Assembly (NCBI GenBank): GCA_947479455.1
Contig: CANJZE010000016.1
Coordinates: 1 to 64,000 of the forward strand
Origin: Bacteroidota bacterium
Lineage (GTDB): Bacteria > Bacteroidota > Bacteroidia > Chitinophagales > LD1
Direction: 5' to 3'
Length of the DNA: 64,000 nt
Part shown: piece by piece, positions 8,308 through 61,103 of the stretch
Layout: each line of letters begins with the position of its first letter
Numbering within the stretch: the first letter of the stretch is position 1
Made by a program: the position numbers and the translations under genes
Notes under the pieces: generated by a model
What the model saw: only the letters and a program-made list of their open reading frames with translations
Told to the model about the DNA's origin: nothing
Databases searched by the model: none

Positions 8308-9231
8308 TTACTTCATCAACTTATCATACTTGGCAGAATTGCTTGGATCGCATCTGCGCAAAACAGTAATTGCCTTTGCTTTTTCTCCCATGTCGGCTCC
8401 TGAAAAGACATTGACCAGCTCGTCACTTTTCGCTTGAAAAAAAACTGCAAGTAAAACGGCATTTGGATTGTCACGAGCAATTTTGTCTAATTTATCTAGA
8501 GCGTTTAAGATGTTTTGCCGTGCCAAAGCTGGTTTCTCATAAAAATTATCCATACCCAAATAATGATAATCGTATAAAACTTGTTTGAATGCATCATACT
8601 TGCTTGCCTGTAAATTATTAATCAGCCAATAGCGATTACGCTGTCCATCAAAAGGTTTCCAACCTTTTGAATCAGCGGCACTGGTTGGCACGTTATTCAT
8701 AATTTGTTCAGCCATTGTAAAATATTTTGCCCCTCCACCTTTAGAAAAACTTTCATAATCCATACCAATAAGCACATATGCATAAAAACCAAGAATAGAA
8801 GTGAGGTTAGAATTGTATTGCGTTACGTTAAAATCAAGCGGTTGTCCTTGTGCATAGGTGAGAATACAATCCTTATCAATAAAATTAAAGATAGGAGAGT
8901 TATAACTACTCTTGAAAACCGGGCGAGAAAGTTGCACTGTAATACTGGCACTGTAAACATCTTGTGCTGTAGGTGCCTCTAGGGTAATGAACATCGTACA
9001 CTCAATTTTTTCTTCAGCAGTAAATTGATCGTTAGTCCAGCTTTTTGAATTCATAAAGTCATTCAAAGCAGTTTGCATATTAGCGAAAACACTGGGGTCG
9101 ACTCCAACTGCTTTTTGTGAATTAATAGCCACTTGGCAGCGAAGTTCCTGTGCATTCAGAGAAACCGCTGACAACAAAAATAGAGCAAGTGCAATTAGTT
9201 CGTATCTCGTATTTCGTATTTCATATTTCAT
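8308..9231 (-). CDS. porD: DUF4835 / PorD-family protein
   Basis: A 307-residue exported protein of the DUF4835 family, which contains PorD, a protein linked to type IX secretion in Porphyromonas. A signal peptide ends at LNAQ (about residue 28), followed by ELRCQVAINSQ, the family signature. YFTMAEQIMNNVPT and GWKPFDGQRNRYWL are further family motifs. It is the last gene of a Bacteroidota-typical run (bamD-rpoZ-coaC-coaB-porD), and its ATG overlaps the coaB stop as ATGA, so translation is probably coupled. Oddly, residues 2-12 (KYEIRNTRYEL) are encoded by a TATTTCG-type tandem repeat (9199-9231), so the start of the signal peptide is repeat-derived. Confidence 0.85.
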   Translation of the reverse strand: MKYEIRNTRYELIALALFLLSAVSLNAQELRCQVAINSQKAVGVDPSVFANMQTALNDFMNSKSWTNDQFTAEEKIECTMFITLEAPTAQDVYSASITVQLSRPVFKSSYNSPIFNFIDKDCILTYAQGQPLDFNVTQYNSNLTSILGFYAYVLIGMDYESFSKGGGAKYFTMAEQIMNNVPTSAADSKGWKPFDGQRNRYWLINNLQASKYDAFKQVLYDYHYLGMDNFYEKPALARQNILNALDKLDKIARDNPNAVLLAVFFQAKSDELVNVFSGADMGEKAKAITVLRRCDPSNSAKYDKLMK

Positions 9232-12074: not shown

Positions 12075-12857
12075 ATGAAATTAGTTGATACGCATTGCCA
12101 TCTTTATTTGCAGGAATTTGAAAATGACTTAAGTGTTTTAATTCAACAGGCGCAGCAAAATGGATTAGATAAAATTTTTCTTCCCGCAATAGATTCCGAA
12201 ACTCACGAACGATTAATCGCACTTTCAAAACTCAGCATTCAGAATTCAGAACTCAGAATTCTTCCGATGATGGGATTACATCCTTGCAGCGTTAAGGAAA
12301 ATTTCGAAAAGGAATTGAAGCTGGTTGAACAATATTTAAACAGTGAAACAAAATTTTATGCCGTTGGTGAAATTGGCTTGGATTACCACTGGGATTTAAA
12401 TTTCAAGGATGAACAACGAATTGCGTTCGAAAAACAAGTTGAAATGGCGATAGATAGAAAACTTCCAGTAGTAATTCATAGTAGAAAATCAACGCAGGAT
12501 TGTATTGATGCAGTGAACAAATTCGAAGGAAGGGTGAAAGGAATTTTTCACTGTTTCGGTGGTACGCTTGAAGAGGCAAAACAAATAATTGATTTAGGTT
12601 TTTACTTAGGCATTGGTGGAGTAATTACCTATAAGAACTCGGGTTTGAAAGAAATAATACAGCAATTAAGTTTGGAAAATTTAGTGCTTGAAACAGATGC
12701 TCCGTATTTAACTCCCGTGCCGCATCGCGGAAAACGTAACGAACCGTCATACACCAGATTGGTTTGTGAAAGCATAGCTTTAGCTTTAAACAAAACCAAT
12801 GCAGAAGTGGCAGAAGTTACTTCAAGAAATGCGCAACTTATTTTTCAAATGAATTGA
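12075..12857 (+). CDS. tatD: TatD-family metal-dependent hydrolase
   Basis: A 260-residue TIM-barrel hydrolase. Metal ligands are seen in VDTHCHLYL, AVGEIGLDYHW, VVIHSRKSTQD, IFHCFGG and LETDAPYL, all in order. TatD proteins are cytoplasmic 3'-5' DNases active on damaged or single-stranded ends. Residues about 52-63 (KLSIQNSELRIL) replace the usual short link before PMMGLHPCSV and are encoded by a GAATTCAG-type repeat (12229-12262). The active site appears unaffected. The gene points toward the tRNA-Ser and is divergent from bamD. Confidence 0.88.
   Translation: MKLVDTHCHLYLQEFENDLSVLIQQAQQNGLDKIFLPAIDSETHERLIALSKLSIQNSELRILPMMGLHPCSVKENFEKELKLVEQYLNSETKFYAVGEIGLDYHWDLNFKDEQRIAFEKQVEMAIDRKLPVVIHSRKSTQDCIDAVNKFEGRVKGIFHCFGGTLEEAKQIIDLGFYLGIGGVITYKNSGLKEIIQQLSLENLVLETDAPYLTPVPHRGKRNEPSYTRLVCESIALALNKTNAEVAEVTSRNAQLIFQMN
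12229..12262. repeat. GAATTCAG-type repeat inside tatD
   Basis: Tandem, partly palindromic copies of CAGAATTCAGAACTCAGAATTC lie in the reading frame of tatD and encode KLSIQNSELRIL. Such arrays are usually intergenic; here the array adds or replaces about a dozen residues in a loop. Confidence 0.55.
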
Positions 12858-23962: not shown

Positions 23963-24670
23963 ATGCAATACAAGCGCATCCTTCTAAAACTCAGCGGAGA
24001 ATCTTTAATGGGCAACAAGCAATTTGGTATTGATGCCGATATGGTAATGCTCTACGCCAACGAAATTAAACAGGCAACTGATTCGGGTGTTCAGGTAGCA
24101 GTTGTAATTGGCGGAGGAAATATTTTTAGAGGGATACAGGCAACTGCTAACGGAATTGACAGAGTGCAAGGTGATTACATGGGAATGCTTGCTACAGTGA
24201 TAAACAGTATGGCATTGCAAAGTGGTTTAGAAAAAATTGGTGTGAGCACACGATTGCTGAGTGCTATTGAAATGAAAGAAATCGCTGAGCCGTTTATAAA
24301 ACGCAGAGCGGTTCGCCACTTAGAAAAAGGTCGTGTTGTAATTTTTGGCGCGGGAACAGGCAACCCGTATTTTACTACCGACACTGCCGCTGCTTTGCGC
24401 GCCACCGAAATTGAAGCCGATGTAATTTTGAAAGGAACAAGAGTAGATGGCATATATGATTCGGACCCGGAGAAAAATCCGAAGGCGAAAAAATTTGACA
24501 AGCTAAGTTTCGGAGATGCGTTAAAGAAAAAGTTAAGCGTAATGGATTTAACTGCCTTTACACTTTGTCAAGAAAATCATTTGCCCATTATTGTTTTTGA
24601 TGTAAACAAAAAAGGCAATCTCAAAAAAGTGCTTGACGGAAAGAAAATTGGAACGATAGTAAACGGTTGA
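23963..24670 (+). CDS. pyrH: UMP kinase
   Basis: 235 residues of the amino-acid-kinase fold: [57 protein letters not shown] and [17 protein letters not shown]. It phosphorylates UMP to UDP and is allosterically regulated by GTP and UTP in bacteria. pyrH is normally followed directly by frr; here a four-helix-bundle gene separates them. A TATTTTCG box ends 5 bases before the ATG. Confidence 0.97.
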
Positions 24671-24792
24671 ATAGGTTGGATTAAGTTGAGTAAGTTAGAT
24701 TAGTTGATTCGTTTTCCTCTTGAAGAATTTGATTTATTGCTTGTCTTTATAACTCAATAAACTAATCAACTACTCACTCAATCAACTAGACC
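24671..24792. repeat. AT-rich repeat before the four-helix-bundle gene
   Basis: GGTTGGATTAAGTTGAGTAA at the left is inverted relative to ACTAATCAACTACTCACTCA at the right. The right part, up to the ATG of the next gene, resembles the 50 bases before the frr ATG (25161-25211), giving a direct repeat on both sides of the inserted gene. Confidence 0.6.
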
Positions 24793-25137
24793 ATGGCAGG
24801 TTTTAGAGAATTGGAAGTATGGAAAGAATGCCGCAGGTTGAGATTGGAAATAAGTAGACTCTGTAAAAAGTTTCCGAAGAGCGAAGATTATTTATTGAAG
24901 AATCAAATAATAAGAAGCTCGCGGTCAATAACAGCGAATATTGCTGAAGGACACGGAAGGTTTCATTACAAAGAAAATATTCAATTTTGCAGGCAAGCGC
25001 GTGGCTCACTGGAGGAAACGAAAGACCATTTGATAACCGCCTTTGATGAAAAATATATTACCAAAGAAGAATTAAAAGAACTGAACACTATTTACGAGCA
25101 ATGCTTGAAATTATTGAACGGATACATTGCTTACTAA
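24793..25137 (+). CDS. Four-helix-bundle protein (S23 / 23S intervening-sequence family)
   Basis: 114 residues: FRELEVWKECRRLRLEI, then NQIIRSSRSITANIAEGHGR and FCRQARGSLEETKDHLITA are hallmarks of the four-helix-bundle family first found inside 23S rRNA intervening sequences. The structure is known to be a pentameric bundle with a basic surface, but the function is unknown; relatives include the diversity-generating-retroelement accessory protein Avd. No reverse transcriptase is nearby. It interrupts the usual pyrH-frr pair and is flanked by similar AT-rich repeats (24754-24795 and 25163-25216). Confidence 0.88.
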   Translation: MAGFRELEVWKECRRLRLEISRLCKKFPKSEDYLLKNQIIRSSRSITANIAEGHGRFHYKENIQFCRQARGSLEETKDHLITAFDEKYITKEELKELNTIYEQCLKLLNGYIAY

Positions 25138-25160
25138 AAAAAGAAAAGAGACGGAGAAGA

Positions 25161-25211
25161 CTTATAAAACTGAATCAAACTTAATCAACCATTCACTTAA
25201 TTAACTAAGCC
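25161..25211. repeat. AT-rich repeat before frr
   Basis: AATCAAACTTAATCAACCAT and TCACTTAATTAACTAAGCC lead directly into the frr ATG. The stretch resembles the sequence in front of the preceding gene at about three quarters of positions by eye. Confidence 0.5.
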
Positions 25212-25778
25212 ATGACAGACGCAGACGTAAAAAAACTTTTAGACGAAACCAAAAGCCAGATGCAAAAAGCATTGGAGCATTTTGAATTTGAACTTTCAAA
25301 AATTAGAGCGGGACGCGCCAACTCGGGTATGCTCGATGGCATAGAAGTAAATGCTTATGGAGCCATGACTCCTATTTTTCAAGTGGGAAATATTTCTACG
25401 CCAGATGCAAGAACTCTTTCTATTCAACCGTGGGATGCTTCAATTTTGCCCGAAATTGAAAAAGCAATTTTGAAAGCCAACATCGGTATCACTCCACAAA
25501 ATGACGGAAAAATTATTCGTTTGAATATTCCACAAATGACCGAAGAGCGCAGAAAAGATTTAGTAAAGAATGCAAAAGCAGAAGCCGAAAAATGCCGCAT
25601 CTCTATTCGCACTATTCGCAAAGAGGCAAATGAGCAGGTAAAGAAATTTCAAAAAGACGGATTGCCTGAAGACAGCGCCAAGAACGCTGAAACTTCGGTG
25701 CAGAATATCACCAATGATTTCTCGGCTAAAGTGGAGAAACATTTAGAAGTGAAAGAGAAAGAAGTAATGACGGTGTAA
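25212..25778 (+). CDS. frr: Ribosome recycling factor
   Basis: 188 residues: FEFELSKIRAGRANSGMLDG, then YGAMTPIFQVGNIS, LSIQPWD and NDGKIIRLNIPQMTEERRKD, ending with the long helix KEANEQVKKFQKDG. RRF works with EF-G to split the post-termination ribosome. Full-length and canonical. Confidence 0.97.
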   Translation: MTDADVKKLLDETKSQMQKALEHFEFELSKIRAGRANSGMLDGIEVNAYGAMTPIFQVGNISTPDARTLSIQPWDASILPEIEKAILKANIGITPQNDGKIIRLNIPQMTEERRKDLVKNAKAEAEKCRISIRTIRKEANEQVKKFQKDGLPEDSAKNAETSVQNITNDFSAKVEKHLEVKEKEVMTV

Positions 25779-37240: not shown

Positions 37241-39256
37241 ATGAATTTTGAAAGGAAGAATTTAACTAACGAAGAACTGATTCGTCTCTACCAACTCATT
37301 CTTAAACCAAGAGTGATTGAAGAGCGCATGTTGAAACTGCTCAGACAGGGTAGAATAAGCAAATGGTTTTCGGGAATAGGACAAGAAGCAATTTCTGTTG
37401 GAGTAACCGCTGCATTGGAGGAGGATGAATATGTTTGCCCGTTGCACAGAAATCTTGGCGTATTCACCACACGCAATTGCAATCTTCAACAACTCTTTGA
37501 ACAATTTCAGGGAAAACAAAATGGTTTTTCGCAAGGGCGCGAAAGAAGTTTTCATTTCGGTACCAACGAACATCATATTGTAGGAATGATTTCACACCTC
37601 GGTCCGCAACTTTGTGTTGGCGATGGAATTGCACTGGCATCAAAACTTAAAAAAGAAAAAAAAATTACCGTTGCCTTTACTGGTGATGGTGGAACCAGCG
37701 AAGGCGATTTTCACGAAGCGTGCAACATTGCTGCCGTGTGGGATTTGCCAATAATTATTTTGATAGAGAATAATGGTTACGGTCTTTCAACTCCCACCAA
37801 CGAACAGTTTCGTTGCAAATATTTAGCCGAGCGCGCTATTGGTTATGGCATGAAAGGTTTAACGATAGACGGCAATAATATTCTCGAAGTTTATCACACG
37901 GTGAAAGAACTCGGCAAACAAATGCGCAAAAAACCTTTTCCCGTTTTGTTGGAGTGTATGACCTTTCGTATGCGCGGGCACGAAGAAGCCAGCGGAGTAA
38001 AATATGTGCCGAAAGAATTGATTGAAGAATGGGGCAAGAAAGATCCGGTGATGAATTACGAAAACTGGTTAATCGAAGAAGGAATTATTTCTCCCGACTA
38101 TCCCGAAATGCTGAGACAGGATTACGACAAAGAAGTTCGTGCCGCATTTGACGCAGCAGATAAACAACCGGAAGTAGAACACACAACAGAACAGGAAGAA
38201 GAGGATGTTTATATGGTCCAAAGTCCGAAGTCCGAAGTCCGAAGTGAAATGCAGTTACATCCGACATCGGACACCCGACATCGGACACTGCGTTTTGTAG
38301 ATGCGATTTCAAATGGATTAAAACAATGCATGGAGAAGTATACCGACCTCGTCATCATGGGTCAGGATGTGGCTGAATACGGAGGGGTTTTTAAAATCAC
38401 CGATGGCTTTGTAGAAAAATTTGGAAACGAGCGCGTGCGCAACACTCCAATTTGTGAGAGCGGAATTTTAAGTGCCGCACTTGGCTTAAGTGTAAAAGGA
38501 ATAAAGAGCGTAGTAGAAATGCAATTTGCCGATTTTGTTTCCACCGGTTTTAATCCAATCGTAAACAACCTCGCAAAATCCTATTGGCGTTGGGGACAAA
38601 ATGCAGATGTGGTGGTGCGCATGCCCACTGGTGCAGGTGTGGGTGCAGGACCTTTTCATTCGCAAAGTAATGAAGCTTGGTTCTTTCATGTGCCGGGTTT
38701 AAAGATTGTTTATCCGAGTGGTTCGTATGATGCAAAAGGTTTGTTGTGTGCCGCTATTGAAGACCCAAACCCCGTAATGTATTTCGAACACAAAGCGCTT
38801 TACCGCAGTATAGAAGGCGAAGTGCCTGAAGATTATTACACAGTAGAAATTGGAAAAGCAAATTTAGTTAGTGAAGGAGAAGATGTTTCGATTATTACTT
38901 ATGGAGCGGGAGTGCATTGGGCGATGGAGCACCTCTCCCAAACCCTCTCCGAAGGAGAGGGATTAACAGCCGATATATTGGATTTGCGAACGCTTCTTCC
39001 ATTCGATAAAGAAGCAATAGAAAAAACAGTGAAGAAAACAGGGAAAGTTTTAATACTTCATGAAGACACTTTAGTAGGTGGCATTGGCGCAGAAATTTCT
39101 GCTTGGATTACCGAAAACTATTTTGAGCATTTAGATGCACCAGTTATGCGATGTGCCTCGCTAGATACGCCTGTGCCATTTGCACTTTCGTTAGAAAAGA
39201 ATTTTTTGGCGAAGGCAAGATTGAGTAAAAAAATACAGGAATTGTTGAGCTATTAA
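37241..39256 (+). CDS. 2-oxoacid dehydrogenase E1, fused alpha and beta subunits
   Basis: 671 residues. The alpha part (1-310) has the ThDP motif GDGGTSEGDFHEA to IENNGYG and MRGHEEASG. The beta part (about 350-671) has MGQDVAEYGGVFK, MQFADFV, GAGPFHSQSNEAW and LDLRTLLPFD. It decarboxylates a 2-oxoacid and acylates lipoyl-E2; the best fit is the branched-chain (2-oxoisovalerate) enzyme, but pyruvate is possible. The fusion is usual in Bacteroidota. Two segments are repeat-derived: residues 325-349 (SPKSEVRSEMQ and on) at the alpha/beta joint, and 564-574 (LSQTLSEGEG) in the beta C-terminal domain. No E2 or E3 gene is in the window. Confidence 0.88.
   Translation: MNFERKNLTNEELIRLYQLILKPRVIEERMLKLLRQGRISKWFSGIGQEAISVGVTAALEEDEYVCPLHRNLGVFTTRNCNLQQLFEQFQGKQNGFSQGRERSFHFGTNEHHIVGMISHLGPQLCVGDGIALASKLKKEKKITVAFTGDGGTSEGDFHEACNIAAVWDLPIIILIENNGYGLSTPTNEQFRCKYLAERAIGYGMKGLTIDGNNILEVYHTVKELGKQMRKKPFPVLLECMTFRMRGHEEASGVKYVPKELIEEWGKKDPVMNYENWLIEEGIISPDYPEMLRQDYDKEVRAAFDAADKQPEVEHTTEQEEEDVYMVQSPKSEVRSEMQLHPTSDTRHRTLRFVDAISNGLKQCMEKYTDLVIMGQDVAEYGGVFKITDGFVEKFGNERVRNTPICESGILSAALGLSVKGIKSVVEMQFADFVSTGFNPIVNNLAKSYWRWGQNADVVVRMPTGAGVGAGPFHSQSNEAWFFHVPGLKIVYPSGSYDAKGLLCAAIEDPNPVMYFEHKALYRSIEGEVPEDYYTVEIGKANLVSEGEDVSIITYGAGVHWAMEHLSQTLSEGEGLTADILDLRTLLPFDKEAIEKTVKKTGKVLILHEDTLVGGIGAEISAWITENYFEHLDAPVMRCASLDTPVPFALSLEKNFLAKARLSKKIQELLSY
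38215..38289. repeat. GTCCGAA repeat at the E1 alpha/beta joint
   Basis: AAGTCCGAAGTCCGAAGTCC at the left and CATCGGACACCCGACATCGG at the right form imperfect inverted repeats. The element keeps the reading frame and forms the interdomain linker. The GAAGTCCGAAGTCC motif also lies between rpsJ and rplC. Confidence 0.75.
38932..38961. repeat. CCTCTCC repeat inside the E1 beta part
   Basis: CCTCTCCGAAGGAGAGG hairpin preceded by CCTCTCCCAAA. It encodes LSQTLSEGEG between WAMEH and LTADILDLRT, where relatives have a shorter link. Confidence 0.65.
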
Positions 39257-43159: not shown

Positions 43160-43305
43160 ATACCAATTAGCAAATGAGTCAATGAGCAAATAAGCAAATG
43201 GGAATACAAAATTCCTTACTGACTTAAAACGACTCTATTAAACATGAAAAACGAATTCTGCATTTATCTAAATACTCAATACTCACTACTTAATACTCTA
43301 AAACA

Positions 43306-56303: not shown

Positions 56304-56625
56304 TCTTCTGTTTTCGAAAAATATAAAAGCTCATTCTGTAAACAGGATGGGCTTTTTCTTTGGGGATTAGTCTTAATACGGCAAACACTACTTTTGATTA
56401 GCGATTGAAGATTAACGATTGCAGAATGCAGAAGTAAATACAAACTCTTCACATCGGTATTTGCCTTTCGCTTCGTTAATCTAAAATCGTTTCCGGTCAA
56501 GGCATCGGGATGAAACAACTCGTTGTTCGCAAATCAAGTAAGCACTCTTTCTCTCTAAGGACATATCGTTTCTCTTCGTTGAAATGTGTAATGAAACAGA
56601 ATGAAATACGTTCTATGTTTGAATT
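56304..56625. other. Intergenic region between rpsU and xerC
   Basis: 322 bases without a gene. It holds the rpsU terminator (56326-56357), then repeat-like AT-rich sequence (TTAGCGATTGAAGATTAACG, GCAGAATGCAGAAG) and GGCATCGGGATGAAACAAC, whose GGGATGAAACAA matches the G/C-rich repeat family seen in pnuC. No ORF looks real. Confidence 0.55.
56326..56357 (+). terminator. rpsU terminator
   Basis: An 11-bp stem AGCTCATTCTG/CAGGATGGGCT with two G-U pairs, loop TAAA, followed by TTTTTCTTT. Confidence 0.8.
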
Positions 56626-61052: not shown

Positions 61053-61103
61053 TTAGTGCAATTAGTAAATTCGGAAATTTGAAAATTCGGAAATGAAAAT
61101 ACC

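Follow-up and report, generated by a model that had tools for sequence, protein, structure and literature searches.

A putative mobile IVS-type element with inverted heptad arms between pyrH and frr in a Bacteroidota genome

Introduction

Intervening sequences (IVSs) of 23S rRNA genes, such as those of Coxiella and Leptospira, carry an open reading frame (ORF) of the S23p family within a hairpin closed by terminal inverted repeats, and their presence is sporadic (PMC4990558). The Coxiella IVS has a 28-bp terminal stem and tandem heptamers (GACAGAT) upstream of the ORF, and is excised by RNase III (PMC4990558). We refer to the encoded protein as IVP, the '23S rRNA intervening sequence protein' of family PF05635/TIGR02436. 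What S23/IVP does, and how the intervening sequences of rRNA spread, are long-standing questions.

Several other systems share features with the element described here. The Avd protein of diversity-generating retroelements (DGRs; structures 4DWL and 8UB7) has the same fold as IVP and is known as a pentameric ring. Short intergenic tandem units, some of them capable of forming hairpins, are represented by the cyanobacterial STRR heptamers, for example between hupS and hupL (PMC2670836), and by the TAACTGA repeats, with a unit of 7 nt (PMC4679880). Bacterial MITEs and palindromic elements are short inverted repeats that insert between cistrons and occasionally in frame. The IVP family, the rRNA IVSs and the cyanobacterial STRRs are thus already known; of IVP elements that lie between cistrons and have matched heptad arms we find no account in the open-access literature searched, subscription literature being outside our scope.

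Results

Organization of the pyrH–frr insert

The window, by which we mean the whole 64,000-nt stretch analysed, belongs to contig 16 of a Bacteroidota genome of 3.76 Mb (designated G000). The features in and around the insert are as follows.

23963..24670, + strand: pyrH (UMP kinase), the upstream host gene (TIGR02075, 343.7 bits)
24674..24710, + strand: left outer arm, C-poor tandem units such as GTTGATT/AAGTTGA, pairing with the right arm
24752..24790, + strand: inner array of AATCAAC units, oriented as the right arm, just 5' of the IVP start codon
24793..25137, + strand: IVP gene, S23/four-helix bundle, 114 aa (PF05635, TIGR02436)
25170..25208, + strand: right arm of AATCAAC/TTAATTAAC units, in the opposite orientation to the left arm
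25212..25778, + strand: frr (ribosome recycling factor), the downstream host gene (TIGR00496, 204.2 bits)

The three genes follow one another in the order pyrH, IVP, frr, all on the + strand, and the element occupies nearly all of the interval between the pyrH stop and the ATG of frr (24671–25211, where 24671 is the first base past the stop), its right arm stopping 3 nt short of the frr start codon. The initial annotation, made from the sequence alone, held that an S23/four-helix-bundle gene splits this gene pair, and this is confirmed by matches to TIGR02436 (E = 9.8e-33) and PF05635 (E = 1.4e-35), with bit scores above the curated cut-offs (112.6 against 24, and 122.2 against 33.8, respectively), which places the protein in PF05635/TIGR02436. 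It had also described similar 50-base segments before the IVP and frr ATGs and an inverted copy after pyrH. Both claims hold, the former as a direct repeat of 37 nt at 81% identity (24763–24799, ending just past the IVP ATG, and 25182–25218, placed likewise at frr), and the latter as a local inverted pair between the left arm and the inner array (24698–24714 and 24759–24775, 15 of 17 positions paired, 88%) and in the predicted global RNA fold, where 24672–24696 pairs with 25159–25183 to make a closing stem around the ORF. A tandem repeat is detected in the left arm region at 24666–24707. What needs correcting is the emphasis: it is the outer, inverted pair that is essential, and the direct copy upstream of the ATG is an additional feature of a minority of elements.

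A monomer structure model of the protein (pLDDT 95.7) is a four-helix bundle that matches 2GSC (TM 0.94) and also 2RLD, and it resembles Avd with TM values of 0.75–0.81 against 4DWL/8UB7. Near-invariant polar residues of the family are Q38, R41, S45, N49, E52, S72 and E75. The window copy is shortened by a nonsense codon and has lost 10 C-terminal residues relative to the 124-aa orthologue in the sister species (G007), although an assembly error is not excluded. Between these two genomes IVP is 97% and pyrH 98% identical, with dN/dS values of 0.045 for IVP, 0.015 for pyrH and 0.010 for frr; the value for IVP places the protein under purifying selection, which we regard as directly supported.

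As in 23S IVSs, the terminal inverted repeats of the window element close a stem around the ORF in the predicted fold, and the kinship with these IVSs suggested by the initial annotation holds for the protein family, the fold and the architecture as published for one 23S IVS (PMC4990558). However, the window element lies in an intercistronic gap and not inside a 23S rRNA gene; elements of this kind are numerous within a genome, every one having a repeat unit of its own, and their excision by RNase III is only inferred. In contrast to DGRs, there is no adjacent reverse transcriptase, template repeat or variable repeat, the three RVT_1 matches in the genome all being on other contigs. Unlike STRRs, the arrays lie on either side of IVP and are inverted with respect to each other, as they also are on plasmids of Nostoc and Calothrix, and the relevant sections of the papers on STRRs and TAACTGA repeats (PMC2670836, PMC4679880) make no link to IVP. 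IVP elements differ from MITEs and palindromic elements in coding for a conserved protein and in having no fixed repeat sequence.

Occupied and empty junctions

Searching 30 relatives with pyrH, we find the pyrH–frr junction filled only in the window genome and in the sister species, while in 14 other congeners the two genes are adjacent without an insert (spacers of 44, 11, 33, 13, 32, 42, 17, 18, 22, 32, 10, 35, 39 and 28 nt). The 3' end of pyrH reads VNG* in the window and VTD* in relatives with an empty site. At rsmD–coaD an IVP gene is present in the window genome and absent from 15 congeners, the two host genes overlapping in one of these relatives (G017). At an epimerase–acyltransferase junction it is present in the window genome and in G006, while the remaining 16 congeners have none; close relatives have the two host genes overlapping as TAATG, and this insert therefore sits between a stop and a start codon. 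The criterion of presence and absence at orthologous sites, by which a mobile element may be recognized, is met at all of these junctions, and both this and the stop-to-start insertion are shown directly.

The initial annotation had proposed a small mobile repeat-gene-repeat cassette, and had suggested a search for empty pyrH–frr junctions and for further copies of the gene and its repeats in the genome. The outcome is favourable on both counts, with 14 congeners empty and the insert common only to the sister species, and with eight copies in the genome that have their own inverted arms. The cassette is therefore supported, but no recombinase or other mobility enzyme lies inside the element and no target-site duplication is seen, the relatives compared being too diverged for exact boundaries to be drawn. 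Neither do we see near-identical recent transposition between unrelated sites. A pair of Calothrix plasmids was considered as a source of recent duplicates from which boundaries might be read, but was set aside as the gene order around IVP is identical in the two, which looks like homology and not transposition. Some insertion sites are common to different families, so that many copies are inherited vertically.

Two observations concern sites without the gene. The empty pyrH–frr spacer of 44 nt in G016 (L039), CCTAATTACCTAATAAACTAATTACC, is repeat-like and could be a decayed arm. In G004 a single array of TTTCGTA units, the kind of unit seen in the rsmD–coaD element of the window genome, lies upstream of coaD (L454), and it is possible that this is an arm left behind after loss of the element.

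Further copies and taxonomic distribution

All eight IVP genes of the window genome have inverted flanking arrays, each with its own unit (e.g. GTCCGAT, AATGGAAT and AAATACG). It is consequently the repeat design and not the repeat sequence that is common to the copies of a genome, a second correction to the initial annotation. In two of the other seven copies (L003 and L005) there are internal stop codons, from which we conclude that decay of the element is common. Across the genus there are about 85 listed IVP matches in 16 of 18 genomes, most with their own inverted arms; the IVP-free congeners are G011 and G005.

Armed IVP elements are very common and occur in at least eight bacterial phyla, including Bacteroidota, Planctomycetota, Verrucomicrobiota and Cyanobacteria. 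On cyanobacterial plasmids the inverted heptamer arms are clear in Calothrix and Nostoc and weaker in others, and one plasmid element (L438) is an exception in having direct rather than inverted arms. This gene and that of L436 lie within CRISPR-cas operons on cyanobacterial plasmids, one between cmr2 and cmr3 and another between cas6 and cas4. A phage collection gave no match to the element, and hence no sign of phage carriage. The few 23S rRNA motifs that we tried were absent from those IVP loci in which they were sought.

The arms match within an element and differ between elements

We scored arms by comparing the 130-nt left flank of each gene with the reverse complement of the right flank of the same gene. 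The window element scores 20, and mis-paired flanks from 71 genus copies have a median of 10 with 95th and 99th percentiles of 15 and 20; by this control the complementarity of the window arms is not due to chance. For 293 IVP genes the median own-arm score is 19 and 182 exceed 16, as compared with 11 of 303 other genes at the same loci. Among the genus copies, own pairs have a median of 19 against 10 for mis-paired flanks, and 53 of 71 are above the mis-paired 95th percentile. The same comparison for 248 IVP genes gives 18 against 10, with 146 above the 95th percentile and only 4 of 238 when DNA 140–270 nt away is used instead, and outside the Bacteroidota 38 of 45 lie beyond the mis-paired 95th percentile. 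At the threshold used, about 40% of IVP genes are without clear arms. That the arms are complementary within an element yet different between elements is therefore shown directly.

The common design of the arms is a short tandem array of 7- or 8-nt units, most often with four copies, in which the unit varies from element to element even within one genome. Left and right arrays have periods of 7/7 in 52 elements, 8/8 in 26 and 9/9 in three, with about eight mismatched. Autocorrelation has one series of peaks at 7, 14, 21 and 28 nt and another at 8, 16 and 24 nt, and these are missing from the outer flanks. The left arm is C-poor, with G exceeding C in 162 elements and C exceeding G in 12. The median distance is 64 nt from the host stop to the IVP start and 45 nt from the IVP stop to the next gene, and the arms therefore fill the intergenic gap.

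In a sample of 146 elements, predicted RNA folds have a median of 30 closing pairs with the element's own flanks, against 13 when the right flank is swapped. Wobble asymmetry was considered as a sign of RNA pairing and rejected, as arm mismatches have no excess of G.U over A.C types (276 vs 257). There is therefore no evidence that pairing is maintained in RNA in particular, and a role of the arms at the DNA level remains a serious rival.

Gene and arms are inherited together and follow the operon

At non-homologous sites arm similarity climbs with protein identity from about 0.5 upwards, with a mean of 20–22 below this and then of 24, 27, 29, 36 and 52 in successive bins; none of 200 permutations gave as high a correlation. 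Related genes at unrelated sites thus have related arms, and it follows that gene and arms travel together, a co-inheritance that we take as directly supported. At homologous sites with moderate protein divergence, own pairing is better than swapped pairing in 30 of 39 clusters with eight against (p = 6e-5), and at protein identity of 0.70 or more the same test gives 21 against 10 (p = 0.016). This supports but does not prove concerted change of the two arms; recent orthologues give only a weak signal, and part of it may come from one element having replaced another at a given site.

Neighbouring genes, called with a simple ORF heuristic, are available for 221 elements, of which 198 lie between host genes on the same strand. 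IVP is oriented with the hosts in 185 of these and opposed in 13 (p = 4e-40), and within the genus in 58 against one, so that an orientation bias along the operon is also shown directly.

Arrays without an IVP gene

A background scan of sampled stretches of the window genome (464 kb, not the whole genome) finds 31 arrays of period 7–8, typically of about 32 nt, with none in a shuffled copy. A simple repeat background was rejected as an account of the arms, as the density of arrays per 100 kb (6.7 in G000, 2.8 in G007, 0.5 in G003, 1.2 in G011 and 0 in G005) does not track the IVP count. These arrays could be solo arms or derivatives without the gene; alternatively, they could form a distinct class of repeats from which IVP elements have drawn.

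Within the window, two heptamer arrays (GTCCGAA / ACATCCG) form an inverted pair that encloses no gene at 38216–38245/38257–38288, in frame in a fused E1-type dehydrogenase ORF (37241–39256) at the linker of its two halves, which are separate ORFs in G001. A TTCAGAA heptamer array at 12224–12261 is likewise in frame, in ORF 12075–12857, and the length of this segment varies among congeners. Neither served as a clean empty coding site, the segments being too variable among congeners for boundaries to be placed. Solo arrays of 7–8-nt units are situated at or near gene boundaries at 9199–9229, 43165–43200, 43271–43298, 56396–56425 and 61067–61100, and some of the solo arrays in the window have units equal to IVP arm units elsewhere in the genus.

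Discussion

We propose, with a probability of roughly 0.6, that the pyrH–frr insert is a small mobile element of the 23S IVS type that has become adapted to the intercistronic gaps of protein operons. In this model one IVP gene is situated between two inverted arrays, each of about four units of 7 or 8 nt, which in the polycistronic mRNA would pair as a closing stem around the IVP ORF. By analogy with 23S rRNA the stem would be cut by RNase III, after which the host genes would remain separately translatable and the insert would be tolerated. A ring of five IVP subunits, related to the ring by which Avd binds RNA, may bind the evenly spaced units, reading their spacing more than any fixed sequence and thereby aiding spread of the element, and DNA strand transfer would depend on an enzyme acting in trans. 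The closing stem, taken together with the published excision of 23S IVSs by RNase III, makes an mRNA-level intervening sequence the most economical interpretation, and the orientation bias and stop-to-start placement fit it. The idea that a five-subunit ring reads about four units of even spacing is attractive, although only the monomer has been modelled and there are no binding data. We use the term 'cassette' to describe behaviour and not a proven mechanism, as the transposition chemistry, RNase III excision and arm binding are all inferred. Dependence on a reverse transcriptase was considered and rejected, as there is no correlation with RVT_1 across the genus and the sister species has IVP copies but no RVT_1.

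It remains possible that the element acts as a transposon-like unit at the level of DNA, in which the arms are terminal inverted repeats bound by IVP as double-stranded DNA so as to bring the ends together, and RNA pairing is incidental. The subterminal repeats of CACTA transposons offer a comparison. The inverted arms of matched period, the mismatches without G.U preference, the co-inheritance of arms and gene, and the gene-less paired arrays, which resemble non-autonomous derivatives, are all in keeping with this. However, the bias of 185 to 13 in operon orientation and the stop-to-start placement would not be expected without later selection, and there is no nuclease or recombinase and no target-site duplication, notwithstanding that the relatives are too diverged for exact boundaries.

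We consider it unlikely that the arrays are independent, dispersed short tandem repeats comparable to cyanobacterial STRRs, with IVP an ordinary host gene and perhaps a regulator that binds them. Most of the 31 arrays in 464 kb are not beside an IVP gene, and IVP is under purifying selection, as this explanation would have it; but matched arms are rare at other genes (11 of 303), gene and arms co-occur over unrelated sites and phyla, and G003 has 10 IVP matches, with armed copies (L103), yet few background arrays (0.5 per 100 kb). Chance or annotation artefact, that is spurious similarity of AT-rich intergenic DNA, can be all but excluded, as the arms are indeed AT-rich and of low complexity but the mis-paired, outer-flank, direct-orientation, other-gene and shuffled controls are all far lower.

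A bolder reading goes beyond the mRNA-level insert that we favour, and the balance of evidence does not yet favour it. This is that IVP elements are a class of protein-coding insert whose ends are set by the spacing of repeats (about four inverted units of 7–8 nt) and not by their sequence, and are read by a ring-shaped binder, with the dispersed heptamers of Bacteroidota and cyanobacteria (STRRs) being solo arms and gene-less derivatives.

The arms provide a concrete candidate ligand for IVP, in the absence of binding data, and with so many intercistronic copies excision can be tested outside rRNA. A survey of CRISPR-linked genes includes IVP genes (PMC10910872), and the mobile-insert reading suggests, by inference, why they occur in CRISPR operons without a CRISPR function having to be invoked. 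The link between IVP and its arms may also account for the dispersed heptamer repeats of bacteria.
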